Part shown: one piece after another, positions 4,206 to 53,557 of the stretch
Numbering within the stretch: position 1 is the stretch's first letter
Layout: each line of letters starts with the position of its first letter
Source of the DNA: Quercus robur
Taxonomy: Eukaryota > Streptophyta > Magnoliopsida > Fagales > Fagaceae
Assembly (NCBI RefSeq): GCF_932294415.1
Contig: NC_065536.1
Location: forward strand, 17,605,974 to 17,669,973
Reading direction: 5' to 3'
DNA length: 64,000 bases
Position numbers and translations under genes: made by a program
Notes under the pieces: model-generated
Database searches by the model: none
The model's input: only the letters and a program-made list of their open reading frames with translations
Told to the model about the DNA's origin: nothing

Positions 4206-4237
4206 GACCGTTATACTACACTGAAGCACAAGCTCTT

Positions 4238-4254
4238 CCTACAGACGGCGCCAA
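4238..4254 (-). other. Retrotransposon primer-binding site
   Basis: Directly downstream of the LTR in element orientation the minus strand reads TTGGCGCCGTCTGTAGG. The first nine bases of TGGCGCCGT match the complement of the 3' end of plant tRNA-Asp (CCA end included), after which the match weakens. Position and sequence fit a tRNA-primed minus-strand start site; the tRNA identity is an inference. Confidence 0.6.
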
Positions 4255-5597: not shown

Positions 5598-8167
5598 ATG
5601 GGTAGATTTAAGTATTTAGTGGATAGCCCTGCTTTGATAGAAATATTCAAAGATAAATATCACATACCCCAGGAGGCATCATTGCGATACTGTTCCCCGG
5701 AAGGATTAGTATTTGATCGAGAGGTGGGAGAAGTCACATTCCCCATGATAGCCTGCATAGAGGGAGGAATGACTCTCCCCATGGGTAGGATCACAAGAGA
5801 CTACTTGCGTAACCATAGGCTTTGCCCCCAACAGTGCGCACCTAATTTCTTTAGGATTCTAGGAGCAGTTCACGCTCTGAATCGACACTTAGGGTTGGGG
5901 CTAACCTGGCACGACGTAGTTCACCTATACGAGGGTCATAAACAAAAAGGGGCGGGATTTTACCTTAAATCCTGGTCTGATGCTGTCAGGCTCATTTCGT
6001 GTCTTCCCAAGTCTAGCAAGGGGATGAAGGATGACTACCTAATTGCATCAGGCCCCTGGCATTATGGTCTCCCTTGCCCAACCCAGCTAGGAGAGCCAGG
6101 TGGGGTACCTTAGATTTAGGTTTTCTAACATTAGATTTAAGTTATTCGTCCTCGGCTTTGCTTTGCTATGTCGAAAAGATTTTATTTTATTTATTTATTT
6201 TTTTTTATAGTGAACAAGTTTCTAACTGTTTAGTTTTTCTTTGTGTAATAGATAAAGAGCAAGTAAATCCTCGGATTAGCTTAATCAACGTACCCGCGCT
6301 CAACTATCTGTTGAGATCTCAAATTTTTGTGAATGACGACGGACATCTTCGAGCTGCCCATCTAGTTTTGGACTACGAACCCCTTTCAAGATCCTTTCAG
6401 GACGTCGACAACGCTATTAGGGCAAACGACTATCGTCAAGCTCGTATAAACGTGTCTCAGCCTCACTTTTTAGCCCCACACGACCTTCCACCAGTTGATC
6501 ATCCAATCCCACAGGGCATTCCCTTGGCCGCCCAGCCAATTCAGTAAGTACCTCTTGGAAAAGCTGTAGCCTAGGAAGGAATTGCATCTTCCTCTTCACT
6601 TGAGGAAGAAATTGACCAGTTCCAATTTGAAGAAGAAGGAACGCAAGGAGTAGAAGCCATTGTTATATCGGAGGCCGAGGAAGAAACTGACGAGTACTCG
6701 TGCATTCAAACCTTTGCTCCTATAATCACTTACGTGGAGGACTCTTCAGACAACAAAGCTGAAGAAATGGCTCCAAAATCCGGCAAAAGTTTGAGAGAGC
6801 TTATGAAGGGGAGGAACACGACGCCTACCCCCCAAGAAGCTAATAAGTCCAAGCCCCCAGTGAACCCTCCTCCTTCCCCTCCTCAGCTCCCTGCTGATCT
6901 TGGGCTTAATCCTGAACTGAGGAGAAAGAGGCAACGTGAGGCTCCTGAGGAGGGCGAGATAGGCACTCCAAAGGGAAACAAACAACAGAGGATGTCCCAG
7001 GACCAAAGAAGTAGGAGATCCAACTCTGTTGAAAGCCGAGAAGATCTTCCCGTGGCTCAAGTGCGCCATCCATCACGCATATGGTCTCCTAAATTGGAGG
7101 TGGATGGTGTCCCCATTGCCTGGGATACCTCCATTAGACATTACCACGGGGGGCATGCAGGTCATGTTGCCGAGGTTTTGGAGCAGCCCCTCCTCCTTCC
7201 AAAAGACATGGAGGCTTATGGGTGCTTCAATCAACATGAGCTCTTCTTATCCCTTAAGAGGGATCTGGCCATGGTAAGTAGTTTAATCTATTGCCCTACC
7301 TAAACACTTGACTATTTTCATAAGTTTTTGCTCTATGTTTTATACTAAAAATAAAACTTTTATTTCGTCATGTAGATTACCCAACAGGTTTATGTGGCCG
7401 AGGATTGGGTTAACGATGCCCGCAGCAAGGCCAGGGCAGCCTTCGATGCTCGGTCCGAGGTCGAGGTAGAGCTGGGCGCCCTAAAAGAAAACCAATCCAA
7501 ACTGGCCGAGCAGTTGAAGGAGGTAGTTAGGGTAAGGGACAGCTCTAAAGCAGGTCTTAAGACTACTGAGAAGCAAGCGGAAGATCTACGTATATAGTTG
7601 CATTATACTGAAATCAATCTGGCGAGAGAAAAGCAATTGGTGACGGAGCTTTGCGAAGAACTTCAGAAGGCCAAGGAAGCTGTCCAACTGGTTAAGGAGG
7701 CAGCTGAGGCCGAGAAGCAGGCTGCTTACACGCTTGGGGTGGAGGAGACTCAAGCCAGACTCATAGAGGAACTCACCGCTGTATGCAGAGATTACTGCTA
7801 CATCTCTTGGGGTAAAGCCCTTGATGCTGCTGGGGTCCCTGTGGGCTTTGATTTGAGGTGACCTGAGAGCATTTACTACGATCCAGAAATTCACGAGCTC
7901 CCAGGTCTTGACTCCTCTCACCTTGAACAAGCCACACAGGTATCTGTGCAGTCAAAGGTAGACCAAGTCCCTCCTGCCCCCTCGGAAGTTCCAAAAGACT
8001 TCAACCAAGATGGTGGCCAAGGAAAAAAGACTGAAACTCTCAAGGGCAAGGATAAAGATCAGGATAAGAAGAAAAATTCTTCTAATCCCACAAAGAAAGC
8101 CCCTGATATTGTTGCCCCCCAGCTCGGCCAAACTGTTGACCCAGTGGTCTCTAAGACAAAAGCTTAG
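5598..8167 (+). pseudogene. Antisense extra ORF (aORF) of the Tat element; gypsy-type 'Transposase_28'-like N-terminus
   Basis: Three exons share a consistent reading frame: 5598-6099, 6252-7273 and 7376-8167. The introns are bounded by GT...AG (CAG/GTGGGG...AATAG and ATG/GTAAGTA...TGTAG). The start is the ATG of MGRFKYLVDSPALIEIF. Exon 1 resembles the plant family annotated as putative gypsy-type transposon protein (PF04195-like); exon 2 is acidic and proline-rich; exon 3 is a long coiled coil (AEVEVELGALKENQ type heptads) ending in a lysine-rich tail. Joined length would be about 771 codons. Four in-frame stops interrupt it (TAA 6545, TAG about 6575, TAG 7595, TGA 7859), each one C-to-T step from Gln or Arg. 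Such antisense ORFs are known in Tat elements; their function is unknown. Confidence 0.7.
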
Positions 8168-9726: not shown

Positions 9727-11077
9727 TTAATAGTAATACCTCTTTAGGTTGTTTACATTCCAAGGACGTGGTATTACATGCTCGTCCAAATCTTATAGAA
9801 AATAAGCTCCAATGCCAGCTTCCGAGGTGATACGGTAAGGTCCTTCCCAATTTGGTCCTAACTTTCCCCAAGCTGGATTCTTTGCAGTGCCCACAACTTT
9901 ACGTAACACCAGATCACCAGGAGTTAAAGGTCTTAATTTTACATTGGCATCATAACCTTGTTTCAGTTTTTGCTGGTAGTAGGCCAATTGGACCATTGCG
10001 TTTTCCCTCTTCTCTTCAATCAAGTCCAAATTCCTTTTTAGATGCTTATCGTTATCACTTGGATTGAATAAACTGCTTCTCAATATTGGAAAACCAGTCT
10101 CCAAAGGGATAACAGCCTCGGCCCCATAAGTCATCGAGAAGGGGGTCTCTCCAATAGATCTATAAGGCGTGGTTCTATATGTCCAAAGAATATGTGGTAG
10201 TTCTTCCACCCACTTGCCCTTTGCGTCATCTAGCCTTTTCTTTAGCCCATTTACTATAGCTTTATTTACAGCCTCTGCTTGTCCGTTTCCTTGGGGATAG
10301 GCAGGAGTAGAATACCTATTTGTAATCCCCAACTCGCCACAATAACTTCTAAATGTTTTGCTGTCGAACTGAAGGCCATTGTCCGAGATAAGCACACGAG
10401 GAACCCCAAACCGAGTGACAATGTTTTTCCAAATGAATCTTTTCGCATCCACGTCCCTGATGTTGGCTAGGGGTTCAGCTTCAACCCACTTCGTAAAATA
10501 ATCTATGCCAACTAGGAGATATTTCCTGTTTCCCACAGCTTTGGGGAATGGTCCTACAATGTCTAAGCCCCATTAAGCAAATGGCCACGGACTGGATAGC
10601 GGATTAAGAACTCCTCCTGGTTGGTGTATGCTCGGCGTAAACCGTTGGCATTGGTCGCACTTCTTGACGTATTCTTGAGCTTCTCTCTGCATATTTGGCG
10701 ACCAATAACCTTGAGTGATAGCTCCATATGCTAGGGATTTGCCACCAGTATGGCTTCCGCAGATTCCTTCATGCAACTCTTCTAAGAGCGATTCAGTCAT
10801 CTCAGGGTGAATACATAACAAATAGGGTCCTGAAAAAGAATGCTTATATAACCTCTGATTTTTGGATAACTAGAACCTTGAGACCTTCCTTCGTACTTTA
10901 TCAGTCTCTGTCCTTTCTTCAGGTAGAGTATCATCCTTCAAGAATTGAATTATAGAGTCCATCCAACTCGGCCCTGCTCTAATTTGATGAATTTGAGCTG
11001 TCTCTCTTCTTGTCTCCATGGGTTTGTACAAGTCTTCAACAAGGATAACCCGAGGCAAATTCTGTGCCGAGGAGGTT
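9727..11077 (-). pseudogene. Ty3/gypsy integrase, decayed
   Basis: On the minus strand the segment starts inside the spacer after RNase H (LPRVILVEDLYKP, near 11058). It continues through the HHCC zinc-binding domain (ELHEGICGSH...CDQCQ, about 10770-10640) and the DDE core: first Asp in VGIDYFTKWVEAEP, second in LISDNGLQF, Glu in GNGQAEAVNKAI. It ends after the C-terminal PWNVNNLKRYYY at the natural stop 9727. Two in-frame stops (TAA near 10571 and at 9793) break it; the first replaces a usual Gln. The catalytic triad residues themselves are present. It abuts unrelated DNA at about 11078. Confidence 0.85.
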
Positions 11078-14895: not shown

Positions 14896-15489
14896 CTATT
14901 GTAGCCAGTAACCAGACAAAAAGAGCACAAAGAAAAGCAACAAGCTTCCATATATAAGTATAGCCTTCTGCCCAGAAGTCAATGCATTCCCACCAAGCCC
15001 AAACTGTTGGTTCTGTGCAAACCCAGCAATCTCCACACTCTTACTCTCAAAGAAGCTCTTAGCTGCCCCACATGTTGGGCACCTCCAATCCTCAGGCAGC
15101 TTTTCAAATTGCAATCCTGGAGCTATGGGATATGAAGGGTCTCCCACAGCTTCATCAAACTTGTGCCCACAAGACCTGCACTCATAGATACCTGTGTTTA
15201 ACACTGCAAACTTCTCTTCTAAGCGGCGCTTGTCAATATTTTCTTGAGGCTCTTCTAGAGGCTCTTGAGGAGGAGGTGTAGTGGTTTCTTGGCTTGAGGT
15301 GGGGGTGTCTTCTTTGGAGATGTCAATGGAGTGTGGCGTAGTCAGTTTGTATGGTTTGTGTAGAAGTGAGAGTTTGGGGAAGAGAGTTGGGGTGGTGGTG
15401 AAATGGGGTTTGAGTTTTGGAGCTGAGGTTTGGGGGAAAGAGGTTGAGAGGTGGAAAGAGAAGGTGGGTCTTGTTGTTGCACAAGCCAT
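14896..15489 (-). CDS. RBD1: Chloroplast rubredoxin-family protein (RBD1-like)
   Basis: Single-exon protein of 197 residues. Residues 1-60 are rich in Ser/Thr with few acids, as in a plastid transit peptide. A Pro/Glu-rich linker follows. The rubredoxin domain (about 100-147) has two iron-binding CxxC pairs, C104/C107 (YECRSCGHKF) and C137/C140 (WRCPTCGAAK). A single C-terminal membrane span (about 176-194) would anchor it in the thylakoid. The length and order match plant RBD1, a rubredoxin needed for photosystem II accumulation. The related ENH1 carries an extra PDZ domain, which is absent here. The start is MACATT, the first ATG in frame. The upstream minus-strand DNA is CT-rich (around 15540-15595), as in many plant 5' UTRs. 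It appears intact. Confidence 0.9.
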   Translation of the reverse strand: MACATTRPTFSFHLSTSFPQTSAPKLKPHFTTTPTLFPKLSLLHKPYKLTTPHSIDISKEDTPTSSQETTTPPPQEPLEEPQENIDKRRLEEKFAVLNTGIYECRSCGHKFDEAVGDPSYPIAPGLQFEKLPEDWRCPTCGAAKSFFESKSVEIAGFAQNQQFGLGGNALTSGQKAILIYGSLLLFFVLFLSGYWLQ

Positions 15490-16131
15490 GATAAGTAATG
15501 TCTTTGTGTATGTGTTTACTTATGTTTGTGTTTGTGTTTGTGTGGCTCCTGTTCCTCTCTCTCTTTTGCTGGAAGTGTATGAGAGAGAGTAATGAATTAC
15601 TGGGATTGTATGTATTTTTTAGTTGCTTTTGTTAATCTGGGTGGAGGAGAATTGAAGGGGATCCATGGAAGAGCATATGCTCACTTGAAAGAGACGCAGT
15701 TGGATAAGGTAGGGAGGTGGTATAAGATTTGATTGCGAAGTAGATGTTTTGGTAATGGGCTGGCTTCGGCTGAGTCAAACTCGAGGAGTTGAACCTAATT
15801 AGCCAGTGCAATCAGCCCAAAAGAGGAAAAGCCCAAGAACCTCTTCATTTCTGGAAAAATAATGTAATTAAAATATTATACCATTTTTATAATATTGTGT
15901 TTATTTATTTAGAATCTTTTTATTCAAATCCACGTGGCAGAATTCTTTCTTCAGATAGTATTTTTTTTTTTCAGATATATTTTCTTTATAAAAAAAAGGG
16001 TAAATGACCCTTTCTCCCTTTTATTTATGAGATAGTTTGCAATTCTCCATTTCTAGATAACTATTGAAAATGAGCCAATACCTCGTTAACTTGTAAAGCA
16101 TAGTAAATAAATAGATAATGGAATCTTTTGA

Positions 16132-23616: not shown

Positions 23617-25833
23617 TCACACATAATTTGGGACTTCTGTGAATTTTGATCTGAAAGCATCCTTTGTGGCCATGTCCACCCAATGCAACCAGTTCCACCA
23701 GCTTGCCTCTCCCCTAATTTGCTTTAGGCCATTTGAGCTTGTGGCATTAAGAGGGAGCTTTTCTAGACTTGGGCATTGACTTACATGGATATCAATCAGA
23801 GCAGGAAAGGGCAGGGCTTTTGGGCAGATGCTTCATAGATTGGATAAAGTTTGCAAGTGAAGAGTTTCTAGACTGAGAAAATGTCCTGATGATAATGATC
23901 TGATAATATTGCTTCCATATTGCACTCAACTATTGTAAGCTTTTGAAGCCTTGGAGCATAATGAGCCATGTCGCGTCTAACAAACCACAACCCCAAATCA
24001 CCATATCACGAATAAGGCTATGAAAGAAGTCATGCGTTGTGAAATCCCTATTGTTAGAGATTTGATATTCATCGAGTGAAACTTCCAACTTTCCCAATTG
24101 TTCACAAAACATTATTTCGAGCTTCGCTAGATGCTTCATTCTTGTCAGAGAAGAAAATGATAGACTGAGAATGTTCAAAGAAAAGCAAGTGCTCCATCTT
24201 TTGGCACCACTGTTGTAACTTGGTTGACTGATATTCTTTTGGCACCACTGGCTGATCGTATTGTGATCCTTAGGTCACCCAACTCTTCCAAGCGCTCCAT
24301 CTCCACCAGCAAGCCTTCTTCATCATACAATGCAGTACTGTGAGAGGGACTACAATCATCTGTTACAATACTGAACACTTGCAAGTGCAACAGACCTGAT
24401 ATCACTTCCCTTGGGATTTCTATAAGATTCTTTGTATAATCCAATAGCAAACATTTCAATCTTCTTAGCCTCTTGAGCTCTGATGGCAACCCCATTATAG
24501 CCGTTTCTGACAGATTAAGATATTGCAAGTTGAATAATTCACTAATTGACTTTGGTAATTCAACTAAGCCACAATTACCTGACAAGTCCAAAACATTCAA
24601 GAGACGCATCGAGTGAAAGAACTGACTTGAGAACATCTTCAACATAGTATCCTTGACCAACAAAGTCGAGCTTGGGACAAACTGGTTCTCCAATGAAACA
24701 TTCTATACTATTATGATGACCCCATACTGATATTCTTTCTGCCTCCTCCCATCTTTCGATTCGGTGTGCATTAATAGAATTGACAAGCTGTGTCAAAAAT
24801 TTGTCTATCCTATCCCCACACACTAACCACAAGGCCATGTCACGGATCATGTCGTGCATCCTAAAAACTCTTCAGAACCATGCAGTACAAGAATTTTGCT
24901 TCTGTTCCACCCACTTGAATTGGCTACCCATAAGGCCATATCCCGGATCACGTCATGCATCCTAACAAATTCTTCAGATTCATCGCTCTCTATTAAACAT
25001 GCGAGCTTCAAAGTTCCAATAATAAATTCTCCACGATTGAAGGTTACATGTATGTTGTTGTTTCTGTACTCATCTAAAAGCCCTTCTCCAATCCAAAGAT
25101 TGATTAGTTCATCCTTTCTAATATTATATCCTTCTCGAAACATGGAGCAATAAAGGAAACAATTTCTGTCCCTTTCATAAAGCAAACTATCATAGTTGAA
25201 TTTAAGAACAGGAAAGACATCTGCACCTAGAAATTCCGAAGGATATCTCTGCAATACACTTACTGCATGGTTCCATTGCTCAGGAATCATCCTGCTACTC
25301 ATGGCTCGCCCAACAGTGATAAGTGCAAGGGGCAAACCGTCGCACTCTTCAGCAGCAACAACTTTGGCAAGCTTTGGTATATCTGGATGAGAATTTAGAG
25401 TCTCTTCACCCACCATCATTTGAAACAAATTTATTGCTTCCTCTCATGCTAGATAATGCACTTTTATCCTCCTTTGAGCTCCCATTAGGCCACACACGTC
25501 CCTTGATCGACTTGTAAATACTACTGTGGACTCATTTTGATCATCAATGCCCATTTTCACTAGATTAATTTGCTCCCATATATCATCAATCATTCAGCAT
25601 AAACTTCTTTGTTCTCAACAACATTAATATCTCTGAAGGTCTCTCTTCCTCGCTTTTACCAGCCCATATAGAATCAGGAATTTGTAATTTTTTTTCTAAT
25701 TACTTCTTGAATCTTCACCAAATTCACTTCCCTGGAAGCCACCACCCAAATTACTACATCAAAATTATGGGTTTGGTACGGTTTAGGAACTTATTATTAA
25801 TCTCCTTCAAGAGGGTAGTCTACTCTTTCCTAC
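23617..25833 (-). pseudogene. CNL-type NLR resistance gene, 3' portion: NB-ARC and LRR, frameshifted
   Basis: This is the main part of an RPS2/RPS5-like CC-NBS-LRR gene. Minus-strand order: rest of the P-loop block (GVGKS next to 25833), NFDVVIWVVASREVNLVKIQ, kinase-2 LLDDIWEQINL (about 25595), RNBS-B VVFTSRSRDVC, GLPL (GLPLALITVGRAM), RNBS-D CFLYCSMF, then RMHDVIRDMALWVA (MHD). Leucine-rich repeats follow (VLDLSGNCGLVELPKSISEL), and the family C-terminus ends at 23617 (stop TGA). Several frameshifts and stops occur (near 25790, 25690, 25445, 24860, 24690 and 24178), with a duplicated MHD block. Excluding the two insertions the gene would be about 2.7 kb, a normal length for this single-exon family. 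It would have been an intracellular immune receptor. Confidence 0.9.
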
Positions 25834-25859
25834 CACTACAAAAAAATAAGGCTATAGCC

Positions 25860-26450
25860 GCATTTGCAAAACGCAGCTATAGCCAATAAAAAACGCAGCT
25901 ATAGGCTATAGCTGCGTTTTTATGGCTGCGTTTCCAAACACAGCCTATGTAGCGAGGCTATAGCCCCTTGCGGGGACCTAGAGCTGCGTTTTTAAAAACG
26001 CAGCCCAAACCGGCGTCTGTAGCTGCGTTTCAGACATACTAGAGCCGCGTTTTTTTACAAACCTAGATGCGGGACCTATAACTGCGTTTTCTACAAAAAC
26101 GCAGCCCAAAAGGTATCTATAGCCGCGTTTATTTTGTCCTAGAGCCGCGTTTTTATGCTCCCAGGTGAGGGACCTATAGCCGCGTTTTCTATAAAAACGC
26201 GGCTATAGATGCAACATAGAGCTGCATTTGAAACGCAGCTATAGCCGGGTTCTACACAGTGGATTGTTCAGGACCTATAGCTGCGTTTTTTAGAAAACGC
26301 GGCTATAGGTCGGCTTGGGCTGCGTTTTATGTCTAAAGCGCGGCTATACTATGTGTTAGAGCCACGTTTCAAACGCAGCTATAGGTCCCGCACCTATATG
26401 CTGTGTAGAAACGCGGCTATAGGGGCCCAAAACGCAGCTATAGGATTTTT
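25860..26450. repeat. Left subterminal palindromic repeats of CACTA 1
   Basis: Many short inverted units (ACGCAGCTATAG, CTATAGC(T/C)GCGTTTT, AAAACGCGGCTATAG) in both orientations. Adjacent pairs could fold into hairpins. Confidence 0.9.
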
Positions 26451-26639
26451 TTTTTTTTTTAAATATTTTTTTTCTTCCTAAGCACATTACTGTCCAAAAC
26501 AAAACCTGTAATTCCACATACATATTCCTGCCAACACTCAAATGCAACAATACTGAACCAACAAAACAAATTGCATATTTGATACTATATAGTATCAAAT
26601 CATTACCAAAATATTAATTACATAAACGATAATTTTACA

Positions 26640-26890
26640 TAAACAAAACAATTAAGTTCGTTGCCAAAAGATTAATTACATATCCAAATAATTACATATA
26701 AAATAAAAGTTCCCAACAAACTTTGGTTTTTACATCACAAAATAAAAACATCACAAAGTTCCCACCTGATCCTATTGGATCGATCTGTCTTATTGCTGAT
26801 CGTTCACCTTCAATAAACATGATCGTTTCACAGGCCCTACCAAACATTTTATTAATGAAAAAAATGGTGTTCATCAATTCTACCTCATCA
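26640..26890 (-). pseudogene. Unidentified possible captured exon in CACTA 1
   Basis: The minus strand reads FGRACETIMFIEGERSAIRQ followed by IDPIGSGGN, more protein-like than the surrounding AT-rich DNA. I do not recognise the family and the splice borders are unclear. It may be another captured exon. Confidence 0.3.
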
Positions 26891-29239
26891 TAGTTATAGC
26901 ATATAAACGTTTAATTAGTTTTTTTGTTTGATTCTAGTCTCTAAGAGTTGCTAATTAGTTACTGCATATTGGATTGTGTTGGAAGGAAATCTATTTCTTT
27001 TCTTGATTAAATATTTGTGAAAAAGGGGATTGTTTTCAAACTGTTGAATAAATGCTTCTTTGGCATAATTACCCTTTAGAACTATAATACCAGCCATGCC
27101 AGCATTAAATGCGAAGATGAACTTCAAATGAGAAAAGGACCCAACTATAATTAATCAAGGAGGTGGGGGTTTTACAAGCAGCCTAAGAATTTCTTATGGG
27201 TAGTGAAGTCTATTTCTTGTGTGGACATATCCTGGCACTAACTCATGCAACACAAAAAAAATAAATAAATAAAAAAAATACGGTCAAACAACTTGCCCTG
27301 CATGTCAAGATGACTTACAAGTATTGCAGATTTTAAAGCTGACCAAGTTGTGGAACCAGTCGACCAGAAAAATTTGCAGTAGCCAATTCACAATAACCAA
27401 ATCAAGCTGTTAAATTCTTAACCTGTATATAGAAAAAGAGATGGAACATAAGTAACATACAAGGTTAATTAAACAAAATCAGAAAACATTCTTCAACGGT
27501 CGCATAAATCCATACTTCCTATTTAGAGATGGAAAATAGGCCTCATACATCTAAGATGATAAAATAGGCCTCATAGATTAAAAAAAAAAAAAAAATACTA
27601 ATACTAAATTGAAAATGATAGCACTAGTACGATATATATAATTAACTAAATTTGATAGGAATTTGTGAAGGTCTAGGACTGAATAAAATTTGCCATGAAT
27701 ATAAGATTTTGGGTGACATTCCAAAACTCATTGGAATGGGTTGATTTTTCAAGAACATGTTTCCAATTATTTTTATAAGATGGTGGATCTTGATGTTTTT
27801 GTTTGCTATTAATATGATTTTATTTTATTTTTCCAACTGGAACATAACAAATTTCTGTAACATAACCTAACATAAAATACTTTTTATTTAGTAAAAACAT
27901 AATTAATTCCTTCTCTTCAACAATTATAAACAACATTGATTAGACACTTTTTTTCCTCTCTTTCTTTGTCTAGGCATCACGCCTAACATGCTGCATGCTT
28001 ATTCATACATGCATTATTGTTTCCAACTAAGTAATACATTACCCTTATCTACAAGTATGTCGATGATCTTAATAAATTTACTTTAACAAATCAAAGTGAA
28101 GTCCGTGTTTGATAAGATATTGCATCATTGGAATTGAAAAAGAAGCTCTTTACTTTAGGGAAGAGACATCAATCCATATGCCATTACTTATAGTAAAATA
28201 TTAATTAATTTACAGGGCCACTCAATTCATTTCTATTCTATATCATATTCATTTCTATTCTATATCATACTATTTTTTCAAATATCCTACTGAAAATTAT
28301 TGATCCAATATAAGATTATTAAGTAGTTTAAGTTTTGTTAAAATTATTAAACTATGAGTGATAATAAGGCGAAGTAAGACCAAATCATGACTGTCTCTAA
28401 TACAAAATCTCAATATATCAAACATTCCAATTCAAATAAATTTTAAATTTTAAATTTTCTAATAGTCATAAACTCATAATGGTAAGTTCATGACCAAAAT
28501 CCATCCCCATCCTACACTTCTTCGGGACTGCAAAAAAACTTGCTAGAATAGTATAGGTTTGGATGAAATTGCCAAAGCTAGTGAGGTACTAATCATTTTT
28601 TTGACTGAAATGAAGCTAGGATAAAATAATTAACTAAAATCAAGATGCTACTAATAAGTCAACAGGAAAATATATAGTAATAATGTCATATATAATAGAT
28701 AGGCCTCCTTGGATGATTTCTCTCTTTATCTATTTTAATGAAAGCCATGTATCAGTAAACAAGATCTTGCATGGCAAACAGCCGACAGTGTTTAGTTGCT
28801 AAGGCCATAAGTTGAAACTAAAAAATAAAAAATAAAAAAACAAAACTATTTCTCCTTTTATGTACATTTGTGCACATACACATATGGAGGCATGAACAAA
28901 ACAAAAACGTTGTGTCTGCAAGATTTAAACATGTTCAAGAAGGAACTACTATCAAAATATAAGAATTAGTAAGCACTTTTAAATAAATTAAACAATCACT
29001 TAAGATAGAAGGAGAAATGAACTTACTTTAGTTATAAAAACTTTAGTTTTGTGTGTAAATAAAATTAATAGTGGGGATATTTTGATAGATTTGTTTGTGT
29101 ATAAGAAAGTGATGTCTCAACTGTTGACTAAATTATTTCATTCCTTACTTATGAGATACACTAAAAATCTAATAGACCAATAGTATGATAGATTTAACCT
29201 TGAACTTTTAGATTTACATTTCACATCTTAGACAAATAA

Positions 29240-29380
29240 GGGGTCATTTGATACTATTATTTAAACAACAGTTTTCAGTGTTTAAACACCACAATACGTA
29301 TTTCCACAACATTTTTTTACTCACATATATTTTCGCAAAATTTAAACAACAATACTAAAAATCTTTTACCAAATGGGCTC
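29240..29380. mobile_element. Small hAT-like MITE, copy A (within CACTA 1)
   Basis: Starts GGGGTCATTTGATACTATTA and ends TTTTACCAAATGGGCTC, imperfect inverted ends. The inner CAGTTTTCAGTGTTTAAACA and TACGTATTTCCACA match the copies at 54652 and 62684. Target-site duplication not resolved. Confidence 0.6.
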
Positions 29381-29871
29381 TAAGCCTACCACTTGAGTGC
29401 CCCTTGGTTTAATAATTTAGTATATAATCACGTTGGGTTAGGATATTTAAGTGGGTTTGATAATTTGAATCCTAATACACCCTTAACCAATTTAAACAAT
29501 AGCAAGCCATTACCAAAAATAAACCTGCCATTATAATAAAAAATAAAAAAAACCATACCCTAAAAGGCAAAACAAAAACTAAACTAAACCAATTTACCAA
29601 AAATGAACCTGCCATTAATTATGATTATAAAAAACAAAGCAAAAAAACCTAAAATGAGCATTAATATTGGATTTAAGGAAAACAAAAGGGGCATATCAGT
29701 CCACTCAAATAAGAAAAAGTCCAGTGACACAACAAAATGCACAATTTATGCGGTAGAAACGGCACACCGGCAACCTCCATCAACCACAACTCGCCACATA
29801 AGCGTTGTGGAACAAGTGTGCCTTCAAAGGTAACAAAACATAGTGAAGAACAATGAATGGCTTTCAATTAC

Positions 29872-31490
29872 CAGATTAGTCAAACGCTTTTGTTGCACAT
29901 CATTCTCAGCTTCCCTAGTTTGAAGCTGAAACAGAAAAATATCAAACTAATCAGTAATTGATCATATAATTCATTACTAAAAAAAAAAGCTTCCTTAGTT
30001 GTATATTATAAACAAAACAATAACACACACACACACAGAATTTAAAGGAGTTTTGTTACCTTTGAAGTCAATTTATTGTTCTCTTCCTCCAATTCTGCAT
30101 TCTTCCTCTGTAGGTCTTGTAGCTGAGATACCAAACCACTAACATCGGCCTGGAACCAAAAAATAAAAACCACGTTCTATTCCTGAGCAAACAATTAACT
30201 AAAAATATGATCAATGAGTGACAAAGGCCTCGTGAGGGACACAATAAATTGAAAAGGAAGAAGGCTGAAAATATACAGCTCATTGATTGCAACAATAATT
30301 TTGATCAGTACATATGCTAATGTCCAGAATAACAACCTCTCAGACCTTTATTTTCTTCCTTGAAGACAATAGCAAGAAGATTAAGGATCATGAAAACCCA
30401 TGTAACTAAATTTTGTTTTCTTTATAATAACAAAAGAAAAAAAAGGATTCAGCAAACACTGATGACAACCTACCAATGTGTTGGTATTTCAAATTATTGA
30501 ATCTAAAATCTTGTGCTACAAGACAGCAACTTTTTTTTTTTTGGAAATTAGATGGTTTAATTTTAAATCACCCCTAAAATATATGGTTAAAAAAAATAAT
30601 TAATATCAATATAAATCCCCAACAGCTTAGTAGTTTTTAAAAAAATATATAGGTTCTAATCTTTCATTTCTCGCTGTAACTATCAAACTTAAAAAAAAAA
30701 GAAAAATTCAAAAAAAAGAAAAATGGCCACACATACAACATATTACAGGGCTGGATGAGCCTGTAAACCAACAGCACAACTTGATGAGAAAAAGGTTCTC
30801 AAATAGAAACAAAAAGTAGCAGTAGAATTGAGAAAGAGACCTTTGACCGCATCTCTTAACCATTATATATATACACATACATATTATATGTATATGTATA
30901 TGTAAAAATAATCTTTAACCTAAAAAAACATTTTTCTAATAAAAAAAAAAAGCTGATCAGACGGTGATTTAGGAAGATCTTTCTCCAATACCACAAACCC
31001 ATTTTGGCTTTTGAATTTTTATTTTTATCTGTTTGTTTCTCGAGAAAAGTTTTGGGAAAATATCCCAAAGCTCAAGTTACTCGCCGCGTTTACTCACGGG
31101 TGAGCGAAATCTCTTTACTTCTGTTGTGTATCTACTCACATCAATTAGAAACCATATTAACAAAAGAAAGACTAAAACATAACAGCAATTCATCAACCAA
31201 TCAAAAACTAAGGCTTAAAAATTAAAATTTGTGCAAATTTCTCCAAATTGAGATTATTTACAAATTATTTTCCCTACCTCTGTGAGTCGATTTCCGCTCT
31301 CTGATTTTTTCATTCCAACAAAATCTGTGCACAGAAAAAATATATATATTTTAAAAAAAAATTAATTTGACCATGAGAGAAAGAGAGAGAGATGGTGCGA
31401 ACCATTGTGAAAGGAAGGTTGGGTGAGATCTGGTCCGGAAGAAGTTTTGATCAATCTCTCAGCTGCTCTCTTTTGACGAATCTCTTCCAA
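29872..31490 (-). pseudogene. Captured four-exon fragment of a host coiled-coil protein gene inside CACTA 1
   Basis: On the minus strand four exons with GT...AG borders keep one open frame: 31490-31403, 31324-31278, 30149-30060 and 29925-29872. They encode LEEIRQKRAAERLIKTSSGP..., FVGMKKSESGNRLTE, DVSGLVSQLQDLQRKNAELE..., and LQTREAENDVQQKRLTNL. I recall a conserved plant coiled-coil protein with these segments in this order, but cannot name the gene safely. A possible non-homologous leading exon ends at about 31576 (ACTCAG/GTAACAC). Downstream exons of the host gene are not evident. Intact splice sites and frame across four exons suggest recent capture and a possible chimeric transcript. Confidence 0.7.
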
Positions 31491-31659
31491 CTGAGATTTG
31501 AAGGAATAATCAAACAGAAGAAAAGGGGATTTTGACATTCAGAAATGAAGAAAGCGATGGGATGAGAAGTGTTACCTGAGTGTCTCCTGAGTGTTTTTCA
31601 ATTTAGGGATTGATTGGGTTGAAATTTTAGGGGTTTTTTGAATTTATAGGAAGGCTAGT

Positions 31660-32075
31660 TGCGGCATAAATGAGTCTGGAGCTGTGTTCAAATAAACGCA
31701 GCTCTACCACTTACTAGCTAGAGCTGCATTCTTCTAGACGCAGCTTTGACATGTCTGGAGCTGCGTTTAGAACAACGCAGCTCTATAAGTTTTGAAGCTG
31801 CGTTTGTTAAACGCAGCTCTCAGATATATTGAAAAAAAAAAAAAAAAATCCCAGGTTGGAACTAAAGCTGCGTTTTTGAAAACGCAGCTTCAATCCTACC
31901 CGGTAAACGCAGCTCTAACATCAAAAAACGCAGCTTCAGAGCTGGTCTATAGTCGGGTTTAATAAACACAGCTCAAACTGCATCCTGAAGCTGTGTTTAG
32001 AGAAAACGCAGCTCAAAATTCGACCCTAGAGCTGCGTTTTCTAAAAACGCAGCTCAAAAACGCAGCTTAAATTAC
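31660..32075. repeat. Right subterminal palindromic repeats of CACTA 1
   Basis: Repeated GAGCTGCGTTT / AAACGCAGCTC units in inverted pairs, with an A run at 31833-31849. Same motif class as the left end, but mostly the GAGCTGCG variant. Confidence 0.9.
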
Positions 32076-32089
32076 CGATTTTAGTAGTG

Positions 32090-32156
32090 TACACCCCTTA
32101 TACCATATAACCCAATAATTCCCACACTTCCATCTTCAATACAATGCCAAACCACT
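32090..32156 (-). pseudogene. NLR gene sliver between the two CACTA elements (start of P-loop)
   Basis: Reading the minus strand gives VWHCIEDGSVGIIGLYGIRG, the residues just before and at the glycine-rich start of the NB-ARC P-loop. The 67 bp include the two target-site duplications (ACT at 32154-32156, TAC at 32090-32092). They join in frame with the upstream ...GLDSTLEV at 37781 once CACTA 2 is ignored. Confidence 0.85.
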
Positions 32157-32169
32157 CACTACAAAAAAA

Positions 32170-32540
32170 AGGTTCTATGGCCGTGTTTTTAAAACGTGGC
32201 TATATGTCAAAAAAAAACGTGGCTATAGCCTATAGCCGCGTTTTTTTAGGCCGCGCTTTCTGATGTGACCTAAAACCTGTGACTATAGGACTGACGGTCC
32301 TATGGCCGCACTTTTTAACCGCGACCCAAGACCAGGTCCTATAGCCCCGTTTAAAACGCGGCCTAAGCATCTGATCTTTTAAACGTGGCCTAAGACCAGA
32401 CCCTTAGGCCGCGTTTAAAAAGTGCGGCCATAGCTCCCTTGGTTGACAGTCTCAAAAACATATTTTAGCTGCGTTTAAAACGCGGCTATAGGTTGTTAGA
32501 ACTATAGCCGCATTTTTAAAACGTGGCTATAGCCTTTTTT
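32170..32540. repeat. Left subterminal repeats of CACTA 2
   Basis: Inverted units such as TATAGCCGCGTTTTTTTAGG, AAAACGTGGCTATAG and GGCCGCGTTTAAAAAGTGCG in both orientations. Confidence 0.9.
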
Positions 32541-33348
32541 TTTTTTTTTTCTTCCTTTCTAGGCCTGATGACAAATGTTCTTCTACAAACGCTTCTTATC
32601 AGGATTGAATGCAACAAAATAACATGCTTGAATTTTTCTCCATCAATAAAATCATAAGTAAATTTCCAAAGACATCAAAACCCAAAGATCAATAGTTGGA
32701 AAGATTTACAATTGATCATATTCAGTTATAAGACATGGCAAAATGTTCACCATATGATACATAACCTAAGTACCATCCAAACAAATCTTTTTAGCAACTA
32801 TACAATTCTTAAATAGATGAGCTTTAGTTTCTAGTTCTAGACCGCAAAGGGAACATGTCTTCTTCTTCAATCTTAATTTAATCTTGAGGCCAAATCTATG
32901 TTTAGAGGAAGTGCTCCTACTGCAATTCTCCATAGTTGGACCTTTAGTCTTTTAAGGATTCTACTCTTCCAGTGCTTTTTCTAGAATGGACCTCATCAAG
33001 AATTCTACTGCTATGCTCCAAAATTAAATCTTTGAGAGTTGAAATCTAATAAGTAGATATAAAGAAAAGGTACCAGGTTAGCCACCATTAAAGGTTAATA
33101 ATCAATGCCTTCAAACTTGGGCTTAGGTTTAAAACCATCCACAAATGAAATCTATCTATGGGTCCTTTCAAACCACAATGTCTACATGATTAGATTCATC
33201 TTATATTTTTCTTTTAATTTTGTTTAAAAAATTTAAGAAAATATCATTTAATGCATTGTCTTTTACATAAAATGGTATAGATTTTTTAAACTATTCTCCT
33301 TAAAGTCATAGAAGCAATTTTAAAGATTCTAAAAAGAAAGAATCTTAC

Positions 33349-33463
33349 CATCCATGAACCATCCACCATCAGAGGATATGTAAGCTTTTGTTATGATAAG
33401 GTTAAGGTCAGTATGGACTTGTACAACTTCGAGAAGTATTCCATGTTTGTTTGCACTGTCAAC
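33349..33463 (-). pseudogene. Captured exon of an ACR (ACT-domain repeat) gene
   Basis: The 115-bp minus-strand exon encodes [20 protein letters not shown] followed by [18 protein letters not shown]. This is the start of the first ACT domain of plant ACR proteins (amino-acid-sensing, regulatory). It has an acceptor (TGATGCAG) and a donor (GATG/GTAAGA), and it is open throughout. The exon ends in phase 1, fitting the conserved continuation of the family. No further ACR exon was recognised in the element, so this is a gene fragment taken up by CACTA 2. Confidence 0.8.
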
Positions 33464-36400
33464 CTGCATCATACAATGGAATAAGTACCAAAAGATTCTA
33501 AAAATAAAAAAATAAAAAGGCCTGGATCTGTACAACAAAGAGAAACAAATTGAAAGCTATATCCTTATCTAAAGCATATATTGAAAGCTTTACCTAAAGT
33601 TCTCATCCTCAAAACAGACTTGTTTTTTTGGCTAATCCAACACTCTCAGGAAAATAACTTATGAAGACAATATCCCTCATAGTAACAGTCCCTTTACACT
33701 TTCCTAATTCTTCTACATCATGATCTCTCATCATAGTCATCAGCAAACAATTTAACAATATTTGTGTTCCCATAACTGGATACCAAAGTTTTAGCTAAAA
33801 AAACAATGAATACCAAAGATTACAGGTGTTAATCTTTGGTATCCATTGTTTTTATATTAGTAAGAGCAATGTTAAAAACAATGGAAACAAGTACTCAACT
33901 ACAAAAGATGAGGCTTACAGTTACAGGTGTTAATGCCAAGCCCACCAATAAGCCTCTTCTTCTCATCTACTTTTATGGAAATGAGACATTACTATGGAAA
34001 CAAAAACTATGATTTATTGACTTACCAGAAAAAACTATGATTTAAGTAAGAGGTGAAATTAAAGCAACTATCCAAAATAAGTAAAAGCCATAGTCATATG
34101 CATTGTCTTGACATACTGCACATCAATCAAAACATCCACAATTCAAATACATTTATTTAATGAGCATGTTTTATTATAATATCACATACCATAAAGCAAA
34201 TTTGACAACTAATTACTAATTGTGTTGATGGCAACATCACAAAAGACATAAAATGAGGAGGATGAGGGAAGTGAATCAAGAGAAGCAGTAGCTAGGCTTC
34301 TATTCAGCACTGGAGCCATTGAAAACCCCTTTCTTCTAAATTCTAATTCCCAGTGATCAACATATTTAACCTAGTGATCAACCAATGATTTAATTTTCTT
34401 GTCATTTCTACATATATAGAAAGTAATAAGGTGCTAAGTGGCAAACTGACAGAGAAGTGTTAAGGCTTTTCTCCTTGTTCTTCTTTTCTTATCCAAATTC
34501 TTTGGTTTTGGTATTGGTAAGACCATTTATAGAACTACCTATGCTAGAGTTGTTGATTGTGTTTAAATATATTGACAGCTACAACGCACATTCAAGAAAT
34601 GAAAACTAAAACAAGCTAATACCCACTTAAATGCAATCACAACATCAAAACCCACTTCATGTGAATATGGCAAAGAGACATAACACAAATTAAAAGGCAA
34701 ATGAACTTACCAAGAACTTGTAATTTGAACTCACAAACGTTCTAGCTTTCAATCCACAAATAGTGAAAAAACTGCTGGAACAATTACATTAATAAATTCA
34801 ATCTCACCTGCTAAAAACAATCAAAGTAGCATCATTACCTCAATGATGCAAGTGAGTACCATATATTGCACTGAGTGATTCAGCCAACAAAAAACAGAGT
34901 ATCTAATATAAAAAATGCAAGTCAGTATAAAAAAAAAAAAAAGCAAGTCAGTTTCATTCTCAATGCTCAGTACCATATATTGCACTTATGCTGATAATAA
35001 AATGGTAAGAATATCCTTCTACATATTCAATCTCAAGAATTATTTCATAAAAATTAACAAAATTCATTATTAAAGCACTTCAAGCAGAACCATAGATTCC
35101 TTAACTATACCAAAAAACAATTCTTAAGTCATAAACATGTGGTGAAAAATATACCAGAACCTAAGATTTATGGAAATGGAAACAAGTACTATAGTTTCAA
35201 GCCCTGCCATCAAAAAAGTTGAAACACCCCAAAATCTGTAAGAGTTTTCCTACAAACTGTAGACCAAATTAACCTGAAAAAGAGTTGGACCAAGGCACTA
35301 TTGCTTCATGGGATATCTCCAAGACAAGATAAATATTCGCATTAGTATATAATAATAATAAAAGGCTGAAAATAAGTTGAGGGTTCTGATTCTTGAGGCT
35401 TAAAATTACAATTATTTTATATGTAGCATTACAATATCTTAAATAATATTAATTTATTGTTGGCACCCAGTATTTTTATTTGCATTTCACAAGGTGTGTG
35501 CGAACTTTGATTGACAATCCAAAGCCTAGGATTTTTGTACTCTCCATTGTACATAACAAGCTGACTTTAGATTCTTTATCTCTTTTATTTCTATCAGCTC
35601 ATACCATACCCATTAAATGACCACCAACAATAAGAGAGTACAAAGGGCATGCCTTGAGTTCACCGTAGAAGGTGATATGTTTGCTTGATGAAAGGATAGT
35701 TTTCCCTGATGTGATGCCATGCAGTAACCACTAGATAGTAGGTAACTCTGTCCTGAATTTTATTTTATTTTTTTAAACCAAGCTAGAAGGCTTAAAGCAC
35801 TGGCATCAACATTGACAACACATTTAATTATAAACCACAAAAACAATTTTAATTAGTATTTTACAAGGTTCTAGTAGTGACAAGCAAACTCAAGTTGTTA
35901 TAGATAATAAATGAAAATCTCAAAATTTTGAGCAACAAAAATAGTAAAAACAGCTAGTGATAGGTAGAAATAAAATCTGCTATTGTTCCTGAGATCATAA
36001 CCATCCATCTTGTAATCTACAGATATGTTATTAAGACAAAAAGTGAACTCTTGTTAGAACACAAAAAGGCAAACAATGAAATAATTGTAAACCCTTTATT
36101 AACAAGTTACATATCAAGTACAAAATTAAATACCAAATCTTCCAAAGATTATTGTTAATCTAACAAAAACCAAACTCTCAGATGCACACAAATTAGCCAA
36201 AAAAGTCAAAAACTCAGCTTTACAATACAATTAGAAGCTTCATACAGAACATGAAAACAACCACAAAGCATGACAATTAGAAATTAATTGAAGTAACAAA
36301 AAAAAACCAATAGAGTAGAGAACGTTTCTCATTTTTAAGAGTAGAATTGTTTTTTTTTTTTTTGAAATGTCATATACTCCATAAACTACCACAAAAAAAA

Positions 36401-36635
36401 CTCTCCCAATTAACGGTAACCTCTCCCATATAGTCGATTTTGTGATTTTAGTTCTTCTTTTATTAGTTCAGGTCACTTAATAAACAAATCCCAAAAACCC
36501 ACACACCCCAATCTCTCAAACAAAACCAAAAATTAAAAAAAGCATTGACTTTTGAAATACCCACTTCCCCAAATGCAAAGATGATGAACTAAAAAGCCAA
36601 AAACACACACACGCACACAAAATGAAACCAAATAT

Positions 36636-36638
<3 letters not shown>

Positions 36639-36695
<57 letters not shown>
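36639..36695. repeat. (GA)n microsatellite
   Basis: An uninterrupted GA run of about 57 bp inside CACTA 2, next to the GC-rich segment. In plants such runs are common in promoters and 5' UTRs. Confidence 0.95.
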
Positions 36696-36698
<3 letters not shown>

Positions 36699-36910
36699 CA
36701 CGGTGGCGTTTGATGATTGCGTAGGGATCGAAACGACGCCGGTGGTTTGGAAGAGAGTGGTGACGAGAGTGCCGGATGGAGGGACCTGGTGGAGGTCGGC
36801 AAAGATGGTGGTGGAGGAGATGAGGGAAGCGAAGGAAGATCTGCTCTGATGGAGGGTGAGGGTTGAGCTAGATCGGGCTTGAGAGATGGAGGCTATGTGC
36901 GATGGAAGAG
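36696..36910 (-). pseudogene. Unassigned GC-rich possible first exon in CACTA 2
   Basis: On the minus strand an open stretch begins near 36890 (MASISQARSSSTLTLHQSRS), is Ser/Thr-rich and stays open to about 36700. It is followed there by the GA run. Base composition differs sharply from the AT-rich interior, suggesting a captured 5' exon or promoter-proximal piece. I cannot name the source. Confidence 0.35.
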
Positions 36911-36954
36911 GCTAGGGGTGAAAAGGTTTGTAGTTTAGTATTTATATAATTCCT

Positions 36955-37273
36955 GAAGCTGCGTTTTTAACCTGCAGCTATAGGGGCCATCTGAAGCCAC
37001 GTTTAATAAACGCGGCCACTTCCTAATTTAAAGCCGTGTTTTATACACGCGGCTACAGACAAAACTTAAAGCCACGTTTGATAAATGCGGCTTTAGCTAG
37101 TTGAGATTTAAAAAAAAAAAATACGCAGGTCCTATAGCCGCGTGTTTTAAATGCGGCAATAGCTCAAAAAACGGAGGTCCTTAGGCCGCGTTTTTAGCTC
37201 AAAAAAACGCGGCCTAAGAACCCGTCTCTGGCCCCGTTTTTAAAATGTGGCCACAGTTAAGGAAAAGAAAAAG

Positions 37274-37311
<38 letters not shown>

Positions 37312-37770
37312 AGTTAGCCAAAAAATAAAATACGGAGGTCCTTAGGCCGCGTTTTTAGCTCAAAAAAACGCGGCCTAAGAACCCGTCTATGGCCCCATTT
37401 TTAAAATGCGGCCACAGTTAAGGAAAAGAAAAAAAAAAGTTTGCCAAAAAATAAAATACGGAGGTCCTTAGGCCGCGTTTTTAGCTCAAAAAAACGCGGC
37501 CTAAGAACCCGTCTATGGCCCCATTTTTAAAATGCGGCCACAGTTAAGGAAAAGAAAAAAAAAAGTTTGCCAAAAAATAAAATACGGAGGTCCTTAGGCC
37601 GCGTTTTTAGCTCAAAAAAACGCGGCCTAAGAACCCGTCTATGGCCCCGCTTAAAAAACGCGGCCTAAGAACCTGTCTATGGCCCCGTTTTTATGAAACG
37701 TGGCTTCAGTCTATCTTGGGCTGCGTTTTTTATAGCCACGGCTTAAAAAACGCGGCCCAAGGCCCCCGCG
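36955..37770. repeat. Right subterminal repeats of CACTA 2, including a 126-bp tandem
   Basis: Inverted GGCCGCGTTTTT/AAAACGCGGCC units. A higher-order tandem starts ACGGAGGTCCTTAGGCCGCG at 37171, 37332, 37458 and 37584; the last two spacings are exactly 126 bp, and the first is stretched to 161 bp by an A run (37274-37309). Confidence 0.9.
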
Positions 37771-37780
37771 TTTTGTAGTG

Positions 37781-38236
37781 ACTTCAAGTGTTGAGTCCAG
37801 GCCAGCGGTCGTATTTTTCTCCACAGGCATCTCATCAACTAGAGCTCGTGGCAACGGGTAAGCAACAACATCAAAATTTCCATCGGTTATTGCTTGTCTC
37901 ACTTCATTGAGCTTAGCACTTATACTGTCATTCCAATTGAGGAGACATATCTTCTGTAATTCCTACTCGTTACTTTGTAAAATACCATCCACTTCACTTC
38001 CGAAGAGAGCTGGGCTCTACAACCAGCCATTCACGCGTTCGCTCCATGTCATCATGTGTTGTCTCTCTTCACATTCAACTCTTGTCCTTGGGTCTTCGCG
38101 GTGGTGCCCGAGTTCATTCTTGACATTACGATAATTCCGAAAGATTCGTTCGAAGATTGGTAAAGTAGTTTGCATGGTCGATTGTGCAGGTGCAAAAGTA
38201 AGAGGCAATTTCCAAAATTAGTCTCACCAAATCCAT
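37781..38236 (-). pseudogene. CNL-type NLR gene, 5' portion (coiled-coil domain)
   Basis: The start codon is probably the ATG at 38234-38236 (MDLVRLILEIASYF), followed by NYFTNLRTNLSELS, as in RPS2/RPS5-like CC domains. After a frameshift the frame continues NVKNELGHH...RVNGWL. It then reads EVDGILQSNE, a TAG, KLNEVRQAITDGNFDVVAYP and GLDSTLEV up to the CACTA 2 insertion point. The pre-P-loop motif GNFDVVA-PLPRA and GLDST are typical. The frameshifts and stop show decay in addition to the insertions. Confidence 0.85.
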
Positions 38237-52224: not shown

Positions 52225-53508
52225 TCACCCCCCCATTGACCGCAACTCCTCCAAGGCGGCCCGAATCTGATCCTGCACCAAATCCAACCGCTTCGAGTAC
52301 ACCTCCAGCTCCAATATCTGCTGTTTCCTCCACTTCTCATCCACCACACCGCCACTCTCCCCTCCCCCGAAATTCAAAGGCATAGCGTTCATCGCCATTG
52401 CATTCATTCCCATCCCTCCAAACCCAATTCCCCTCCCTCCAAATCCACTCCCCCCCATTGCATTGCTCAACAACTCCTTAAACAGCGGCGACAAGCAACT
52501 CTTCACCGTCTCCTCTATCATTCCCCCCAAATTCCCACCACCACCGCCGCCGCCGCCGCCGCCACTGCCACCGCTACCGCCACTCCCAACAACATTCTCA
52601 TTCCCATTATTCGCCTTCTCCTCGGTCCGAACCCGCGATCTTGACCTTTTTCGCGACGAATTCGGCTTCTTCTCACCGCTATTGTTGTAATTCGCATTCT
52701 CCTCCAACAAATTAGGGTTTTTCGAATCTTCGTCGTCGAAAACCGAATCATCCACCACCACAGCGAAGCGATTATTCGAATTGTTATTGATATTACTATT
52801 GCTCCAGATCTTGCGCGAGATTTCGAAGGTGGCTTGATCGTGAGGGCTCTTGAAGGAGAAATCTTTGCCGGTGCTGATTTTGCCGACAACGTTTCGGTAC
52901 TTCTTCTTCAAACGACGCAGCTTCTCGACGAGCTGGTTCTTGTTGAAATCGAGCTGGAGCTTCGACTTAATCTGATCGTAGAACAAAGCGGTGTCGTTGT
53001 GGTGAGTCGAGCCACGCGACGTCGTGTAGTCCAAAAACCCCTGGAGAAGCTCGATCTCGTCCTCATCGGTCCACAGCCTCTGAAAAAGTCTCCGCGAATC
53101 GTCGATAGGAATTGGCTGCGGCTTCTTCTCCTCGAGGTGTGGCTCGATAGTGATACGCTGTCGTTTCGGGGAAGGCGTGGTGGTTGCTGTTGCTGCGGCT
53201 GCGGCTGCGGCTGCGGCGGCCGCGGCGGAGGTTGTTATGACCGTCGTGGTGATTGCTGACGTGGCAATTGGCGGTTCGACGGCGACGATGGCGTTGGAGA
53301 CGGAGGAGGAAGGGACGGCGACGGTGACGGTAGGGGATGACGTGGAGGGAGAAGCGGAGTTGATGACGTCATCGTCCTCTGGATCGGGGAGAACGTCGTC
53401 GTTTTCGTCGTCGTCTAATTCTTCTTCGTCTTCCTCTTCTGATAATTCGTCATCGTCGTCATCGAAGTCTTCTTCGGCGAAGACGGTGTCGTTTTCCTCC
53501 GAGGCCAT
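52225..53508 (-). CDS. GeBP/STOREKEEPER-family DNA-binding protein (DUF573), copy 1
   Basis: Intact single-exon protein of 427 residues. Residues 1-50 are very acidic; an Ala run lies around 95-107, then a basic SPKRQRI (possible nuclear signal). The DUF573 DNA-binding domain (about 139-237) contains RRLFQRLWTDEDEIELLQGF, NKNQLVEKLRRLKKKYRN and TFEISRKIW. A Gly-rich stretch follows around residue 315-330. The C-terminal region has a leucine-zipper-like helix (LELEVYSKRLDLVQDQIRAA). The layout fits plant GeBP/GPL and STKL nuclear transcription factors. In Arabidopsis GeBP genes act in cytokinin responses; the role here is inferred only from family. MASEEN is the first in-frame ATG. The paralogue at 58778 is divergently oriented. 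Confidence 0.9.
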   Translation of the reverse strand: MASEENDTVFAEEDFDDDDDELSEEEDEEELDDDENDDVLPDPEDDDVINSASPSTSSPTVTVAVPSSSVSNAIVAVEPPIATSAITTTVITTSAAAAAAAAAAAATATTTPSPKRQRITIEPHLEEKKPQPIPIDDSRRLFQRLWTDEDEIELLQGFLDYTTSRGSTHHNDTALFYDQIKSKLQLDFNKNQLVEKLRRLKKKYRNVVGKISTGKDFSFKSPHDQATFEISRKIWSNSNINNNSNNRFAVVVDDSVFDDEDSKNPNLLEENANYNNSGEKKPNSSRKRSRSRVRTEEKANNGNENVVGSGGSGGSGGGGGGGGGGNLGGMIEETVKSCLSPLFKELLSNAMGGSGFGGRGIGFGGMGMNAMAMNAMPLNFGGGESGGVVDEKWRKQQILELEVYSKRLDLVQDQIRAALEELRSMGG

Positions 53509-53557
53509 TATAAAACCTTTTTTTTTTTAGAGAGAGAGACACAGAAAGGGGGGGCTT

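Follow-up and report, generated by a model that had tools for sequence, protein, structure and literature searches.

Within a 64,000-nucleotide stretch of the Quercus robur genome (the window; C3:17605974-17669973 of a 785.7-Mb assembly of 42 contigs), two transposons of the CACTA type, here called E1 and E2, interrupt the P-loop region of a single gene of the nucleotide-binding leucine-rich repeat (NLR) class. E1 and E2 are two independent insertions, which is confirmed because NLR relatives in the same genome are uninterrupted and because family copies with like ends and target-site duplications (TSDs) occur elsewhere. We consider E1 and E2 to be ordinary non-autonomous elements of the Pack-CACTA type that were separately inserted in an unconstrained NLR pseudogene of the coiled-coil (CC) type, and we assign this explanation a probability of roughly 0.85.

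Two CACTA insertions in one NLR gene

The borders of both elements were established by sequence reading and by script. E1 occupies 25834-32089 (6256 bp), and E2 occupies 32157-37780 (5624 bp); both begin with CACTAC and end with GTAGTG, and since the CACTACAAAAAAA end lies at the left in both, the two elements have the same orientation. Each element is flanked by a perfect 3-bp duplication that can be read directly: TAC for E1 (25831-25833 and 32090-32092) and ACT for E2 (32154-32156 and 37781-37783). Direct reading therefore bears out the original prediction for this locus, which described CACTAC termini and perfect but different duplications. CACTAC alone is not rare, as it occurs 19 times in the window versus 15.1 expected; above chance are the paired ends, the clustering of a subterminal motif at the ends, the duplications, and the existence of family copies that share the same start base. 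The subterminal motif is found mostly in the outer parts of E1 and E2, with one stray match inside each. CACTA terminal inverted repeats, a 3-bp TSD and subterminal repeats, the hallmarks of CACTA (En/Spm) elements, are present in both. Among the end forms searched, neither CACTACAAA nor a matching inverse end was found inside E1 or E2. The right subterminal part of E2 (37137-37675) contains four repeat units of ~126 bases, which are 79-100% alike to the reference copy.

Joining of the flanks gives a minus-strand frame that runs without a stop through both insertion sites and reads ...LEVVWHCIEDGSVGIIGLYGIRGVGKS. The NLR spacer between the elements (32090-32156, minus strand) is 67 bp long, including one TSD copy of each element, and extends from just upstream of the P-loop into the P-loop itself. 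The E1 site falls in the Val codon of the P-loop motif GVGK, and the E2 site lies ~22 codons upstream, in agreement with the predicted placement of the insertions just before and inside the P-loop.

We used a 79-aa protein query spanning both junctions to search for uninterrupted relatives (30 candidates scored); of the seven matches, two are the pieces of the window itself and five are NLR places elsewhere in the genome. Each of these five spans both junctions without an element-sized insert (query residues 2-78, 8-78, 5-78, 7-78, and 35-78), at a length 2-3 residues below that of the query; in one place (L064), this difference falls upstream of the E2 site. Two of the five have open frames, with lengths of 909 and 891 aa, and these paralogs match the expectation that the usual form of the gene is a single frame of ~2.7 kb. 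A 435-base DNA query (5 candidates, 5 scored) matched, besides the three pieces in the window, two further loci, and the E1 site is continuous in both of these loci, one located ~109 kb away on C3 (81% identity) and the other on C5 (69% identity). The C5 locus is also among the five places identified by the protein search. In the C3 paralog (L065), a single TAC is present at the E1 site. Based on this same-genome comparison, the duplications are genuine, and the E1 site is empty in relatives. The DNA query did not provide an empty E2 site, as the C3 paralog is without that stretch and the C5 match stops short; for E2, the protein-level comparison was used. With the same DNA query, the full-length 67-base spacer matched nowhere outside the window. 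The region C5:23670771-23697247 appears as a small NLR cluster, with three places matching the P-loop query within 27 kb, one of them with an internal stop.

The similarity of ends and motifs between E1 and E2 could also reflect one larger element that was internally rearranged and whose inner ends are merely end-like. However, each element has its own TSD, the 67-bp spacer is in-frame NLR sequence, the NLR relatives are uninterrupted, and each element has separate family copies; this explanation is extremely improbable, and we rejected it. It is highly improbable that an assembly artefact joined two insertion alleles. The arrangement is known from the assembly, and the window belongs to the assembly that was searched, such that its identity there is no independent check against a misjoin; however, duplications without mismatch and a frame that is restored at each site are hardly expected from a misjoin. 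The predicted independence of the two insertions is thus upheld by their own TSDs, the uninterrupted NLR relatives, and the separate family copies.

Element families and the mosaic interior of E1

A query with the left end of E1 yielded 74 matches (205 candidates, 40 scored), many of which begin with the first base of CACTAC (query base 235). Three E1-family copies are complete, with lengths of 5799, 11552, and 4902 bp and TSDs of CAA, TTT, and TAT, respectively; in a fourth copy, on C2 near 73.93 Mb, the first base is changed, and the TSD is seemingly CTT, as judged by eye. For E2, 40 of 652 candidates were scored, and this analysis identified a sister copy at C2:4713017-4719045 with the TSD ACA. 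The sister copy is ~460 bases longer in one place, and it aligns to E2 over most of its length in pieces with 99, 99, and 91% identity, with 86-90% identity at the left end. Two shorter E2-family copies have the TSDs AAG and GTA. The genome search for other copies sharing these ends, which had been proposed as a check, therefore recovered six relatives with perfect 3-bp TSDs, three in each family, and with varied triplets. Because the left ends of E1 and E2 have only 79% identity over the first 100 bases, we regard the two elements as members of related but distinct subfamilies.

A weak match to Transposase_24 (E=3.6e-4; 21.1 bits vs a cut-off of 28.7) is present in the 11.5-kb E1-family copy on C2. 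In this copy, the weak Transposase_24 (Ptta/En/Spm) match is accompanied by a zf-RVT match (L048:477-878 and L047:6227-6607). When read by eye, several E1-family copies (L002-L006) carry the stretch ANLSGQLVPQLGQLLNLQYL before a GT, and a stretch of this type is seemingly partly deleted in E1, near 27200-27390 of the window (minus strand). We take this stretch to resemble a leucine-rich repeat (LRR) exon of SERK-type receptor kinases.

Inside E1 and E2, stop-to-stop frames reach at most 131 aa. We scanned 138 open stretches against Pfam (75 of the 80 listed for E1 and all 63 for E2), leaving out stretches shorter than 32 aa, low-complexity stretches, and the outer 0.4-0.9 kb of each element; no transposase family was identified among the stretches scanned. 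For pooled stretches, the best E1 match was ZapB (8.4e-5), which is weak and was accompanied by other coiled-coil-type models, and the best E2 match was zf-RVT (1.9e-4, below cut-off), with weaker ACT-like matches as well. The zf-RVT match is suggestive of a retroelement remnant, not of a host gene. Six single stretches from E1 and E2 were also scanned, and none gave a match better than E=0.52. The E2 cargo is largely common to the C2 sister copy, and it matches several places, some of them repeats; neither the Pfam scan of 63 stretches nor the genome matches (40 of 652 candidates scored) named a gene in this cargo. Captured working genes in E1 or E2 were considered and rejected, given the 131-aa maximum and the weak Pfam matches. 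With respect to the features that define Pack-CACTA elements, neither E1 nor E2 has its own transposase in the scanned stretches, and fragments of host genes were seen for E1, not for E2.

Whereas family copies cover 2832 of the 6256 bases of E1 (1-2223, 3007-3112, and 5754-6256), seven other loci cover 3950 bases, and together they account for 6164 bases. The left end and adjoining part common to other family copies (25834-28056; E1 1-2223) is followed by a cargo piece at 28052-28945, which corresponds to three ordered pieces of C1:5349789-5351663 (90-96% identity); E1 3007-3112 is also common to one family copy. The next piece, at 28945-29525, matches C5:77111861-77112440 (94%), on the 5' side of an exon open reading frame (ORF) of a dioxygenase (DIOX_N), and the piece at 29510-29804 matches C35:573206-573500 (94%), a segment flanked by ORFs of an expansin-type gene (DPBB_1). 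Sequence that is contiguous at C1:29040604-29041362 is present in two halves, the first at 29834-30169 (89%) and the second at 31151-31572 (92%). Between these halves are a piece at 30152-30534 that matches C3:61938650-61939028 (96%), a short distance downstream of a kelch ORF of 496 aa, and a piece at 30537-31136 that matches C3:61265183-61265774 (91%). The right end of E1 (31587-32089) is again common to family copies.

Recognisable genes are located beside three of the seven source loci (dioxygenase, expansin-type, and kelch), and the matched parts are non-coding. The C1:29.04 Mb locus adjoins ORFs that appear coiled-coil-like by reading, with no Pfam family above cut-off. The original prediction described both elements as gene-carrying; this description holds for gene fragments rather than whole genes, and such fragments were seen in E1, in the form of pieces from beside these three genes.

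In E1, the kelch-side piece and the C3:61.27 Mb piece separate the two halves of the C1:29.04 Mb piece, which at its source is contiguous; this pattern suggests that one capture took place inside another made before it, or that copying went back to a template already used. Of the 10 joints between consecutive pieces of E1, five show overlaps of 1-18 bases, and at the other five 2-33 bases are unassigned. As judged from these alignments, the interior of E1 would fit repair with template switching, for which the joints are only suggestive, and we infer that copying proceeded from the source loci to E1. The lack of inner-end relics in E1 would fit repair-type capture at least as well as the fusion of neighbouring elements, albeit neighbours that fuse can likewise lose their inner ends.

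Decay of the NLR gene and proximity of the two elements

The interrupted gene has the domain order of a CC-NB-ARC-LRR protein: the NB-ARC domain, winged helix, and LRR were identified by Pfam, and the P-loop was identified by translation. The coiled-coil side up to the E2 site is at 37784-38150 (minus strand, outer limit approximate), based on translation and protein match, with 37777-37938 aligning to residues 1-54 of the 79-aa query. The second half of the NB-ARC domain and the winged helix are at 24847-25443 (minus strand; Pfam NB-ARC E=4.1e-12, WH_DRP 5.6e-10), and the LRR part is at 24175-24702 (minus strand; Pfam LRR_14 E=4.7e-13). In the translation, a stop occurs soon after the P-loop, the remaining NB-ARC sequence is in shifting frames, and further stops occur in the coiled-coil part. 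Even when both elements are removed, the gene is without an open reading frame. Because these additional stops and frame breaks lie outside the insertions, this NLR copy is a pseudogene irrespective of the elements. As the NLR is otherwise broken, relaxed selection offers the simplest explanation of the locus. The original prediction placed such relaxation after the first hit; the other lesions in the gene fit relaxed selection, which may have set in before or after the insertions.

The motif RMHDxIRDMALW occurs twice in different frames (24575-24871 and 24847-25443, minus strand), which suggests a small duplication in the pseudogene. Relative to the C3 paralog, there is a 5-base length difference at 25815-25823; it is palindromic (GTAGTCTAC) and ends 8 bases from the E1 duplication, and a second 5-base difference is located ~40 bases further left. 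By its sequence, the palindromic difference may be an old excision footprint or simple decay.

If insertion were uniform, 205 and 652 copies, which are first-look candidates rather than confirmed copies, would give ~0.023 expected E1-E2 pairs within 67 bases. The expectation increases to 0.11 pairs if one fifth of the genome is open to insertion, and to 0.68 pairs with 2000 copies of each element. The E1-E2 pair is therefore unusual, and coincidence in a pseudogene is possible given 0.02-0.7 expected pairs. Among the matches listed, the next closest pair of E1-family and E2-family copies is ~103 kb apart, as compared by eye.

A preferred target, either the P-loop region of NLRs or this particular locus, had been suggested as one reason for two insertions within 67 bp. 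In line with such a preference, GTAGTG-N61-91-CACTACAAAAAAA, the pattern of a tandem pair, is matched 10 times across the genome, including once in the window, versus 2 times for a reversed control. However, several of the 10 look like copies of one repeat, and only the match in the window represents verified elements; with nine of 10 matches unverified as elements, we rejected this pattern as proof of enrichment. The triplets also vary. At 13 E1-family left ends they are TAC, CTC, GTT, CCT, CAA, ATT, TTT, GTT, TTA, ACT, ATT, TAT, and CTT, of which 11 are distinct (GTT and ATT occur twice, and ACT, the triplet of E2, occurs once), and the E2 family adds ACA, AAG, and GTA. A fixed target triplet was accordingly rejected, though GTT, ATT, and ACT recur. 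The other five NLR places are uninterrupted at both junctions, albeit interrupted copies could have escaped that search. Given these observations, the distance to the next listed pair, and the compatibility of the data with coincidence, we found no support for a preferred target and consider it very unlikely.

The two insertions might instead be linked, such that a CACTA element or shared transposase machinery already present drew in the second element by local hopping. This would also explain the common orientation of E1 and E2, and Pack-TYPE elements are reported to insert locally in the same orientation (PMC8903248). The insertion statistics given there are for hAT and PIF elements, with Pack-CACTA included by citation of Catoni 2019. 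However, E1 and E2 belong to different subfamilies, and the closest E2 copy among the matches listed is on another contig, C2 (40 of 652 candidates scored). We regard linked insertion as unlikely, and separate insertion into an unconstrained pseudogene as the preferred explanation.

Elsewhere in the window, frames at 297-4238 and 9793-10572 (both minus strand) resemble, by reading, the polyprotein and integrase parts of a long terminal repeat retrotransposon. Two similar, opposed ORFs of 433 and 409 aa, at 52225-53526 (minus strand) and 58691-59920 (plus strand), have the look of GeBP/STKL-type DNA-binding proteins, and a 207-aa ORF at 14896-15519 (minus strand) resembles a plastid rubredoxin-type protein; both assignments are likewise by reading.

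Possible origin, precedents, and significance

Under the preferred explanation, each element would have been moved in trans by a CACTA transposase, and E1 and E2 inserted separately, each with a 3-bp duplication, into a CC-type NLR. The NLR would already have been a pseudogene, or would have become one later, with no selection left to remove the elements. Several other loci would have contributed the cargo of E1, probably through error-prone repair with template switching. With a common orientation and a spacing of 67 bp, the two elements might in principle be mobilised through their outer ends together, taking the P-loop spacer along as new cargo; there is no sign that such joint use has happened.

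Several points weigh against this explanation. No autonomous element of either subfamily was demonstrated, with the Transposase_24 match of the 11.5-kb E1-family copy below cut-off, and the NLR lesions may have arisen before or after the insertions. The uniform-insertion estimate of ~0.02 pairs makes the pairing moderately unlikely by chance. Template switching is unproven, with five of 10 E1 joints leaving 2-33 unassigned bases; the direction of copying is inferred, and four of the seven source loci have no assigned gene family.

A more far-reaching alternative is that the locus represents a capture intermediate in a natural genome. The pair would be mobilisable by its outer ends as one composite of ~11.9 kb that carries the P-loop off, the interior of E1 would derive from an earlier, different capture route by template switching, and the 5-base palindrome may be the footprint of an earlier visit. 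The 435-base DNA query (5 candidates, 5 scored) identified no composite copy carrying the spacer elsewhere. We consider this alternative quite unlikely, and the preferred explanation remains that of two ordinary elements inserted separately.

Based on precedents among Pack-CACTA elements, Tgm-Express1, CACTA elements of Chenopodium, and VANDAL21, the kind of arrangement described here is already known. Pack-CACTA elements with cargo from several loci have been described, together with a capture model in which two neighbouring elements and the intervening DNA move as one (PMC8903248); the same idea of capture, with complementary terminal deletions, appears in PMC13317346. E1 and E2 resemble Pack-CACTA and other Pack-TYPE elements in being non-autonomous, with CACTA ends, a 3-bp TSD, and, for E1, multi-locus cargo, and as a neighbouring pair in the same orientation they have the geometry of the proposed capture model (PMC8903248). 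They differ in that the three gene-side pieces of E1 are non-coding, E1 is without inner-end relics, and the E2 cargo is without a named gene. In structure, E1 closely matches Tgm-Express1, a single element in an F3H intron of the soybean wp allele (PMC1947982); however, Tgm-Express1 is one intron element, whereas here two elements are in the coding part of a pseudogene. CACTA elements of Chenopodium also contain captured fragments (PMC8978399). A pair of VANDAL21 elements, head to head and ~200 bp apart, is located in a region homologous to an NLR pseudogene of the Toll/interleukin-1 receptor type, and for this pair alternative transposition was inferred from reads and a circle of the spacer was detected by polymerase chain reaction (PMC12312487). 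As in our window, two DNA transposons are close together in an NLR pseudogene; however, the elements described here are of the CACTA type, are arranged head to tail, and are known from sequence alone. In the literature searched, we found no earlier report of two Pack-CACTA elements in one NLR.

As a single locus described from its sequence only, the E1-E2 pair does not otherwise depart from ordinary transposon biology in plants. It is a clean example of the pair arrangement from which Pack-TYPE capture is proposed to start, and both uninterrupted sites and family copies in one genome serve as its controls; the mosaic interior of E1 may record another route of capture. Whether pairing leads to new cargo could be learnt by comparing pairs of this kind between accessions.

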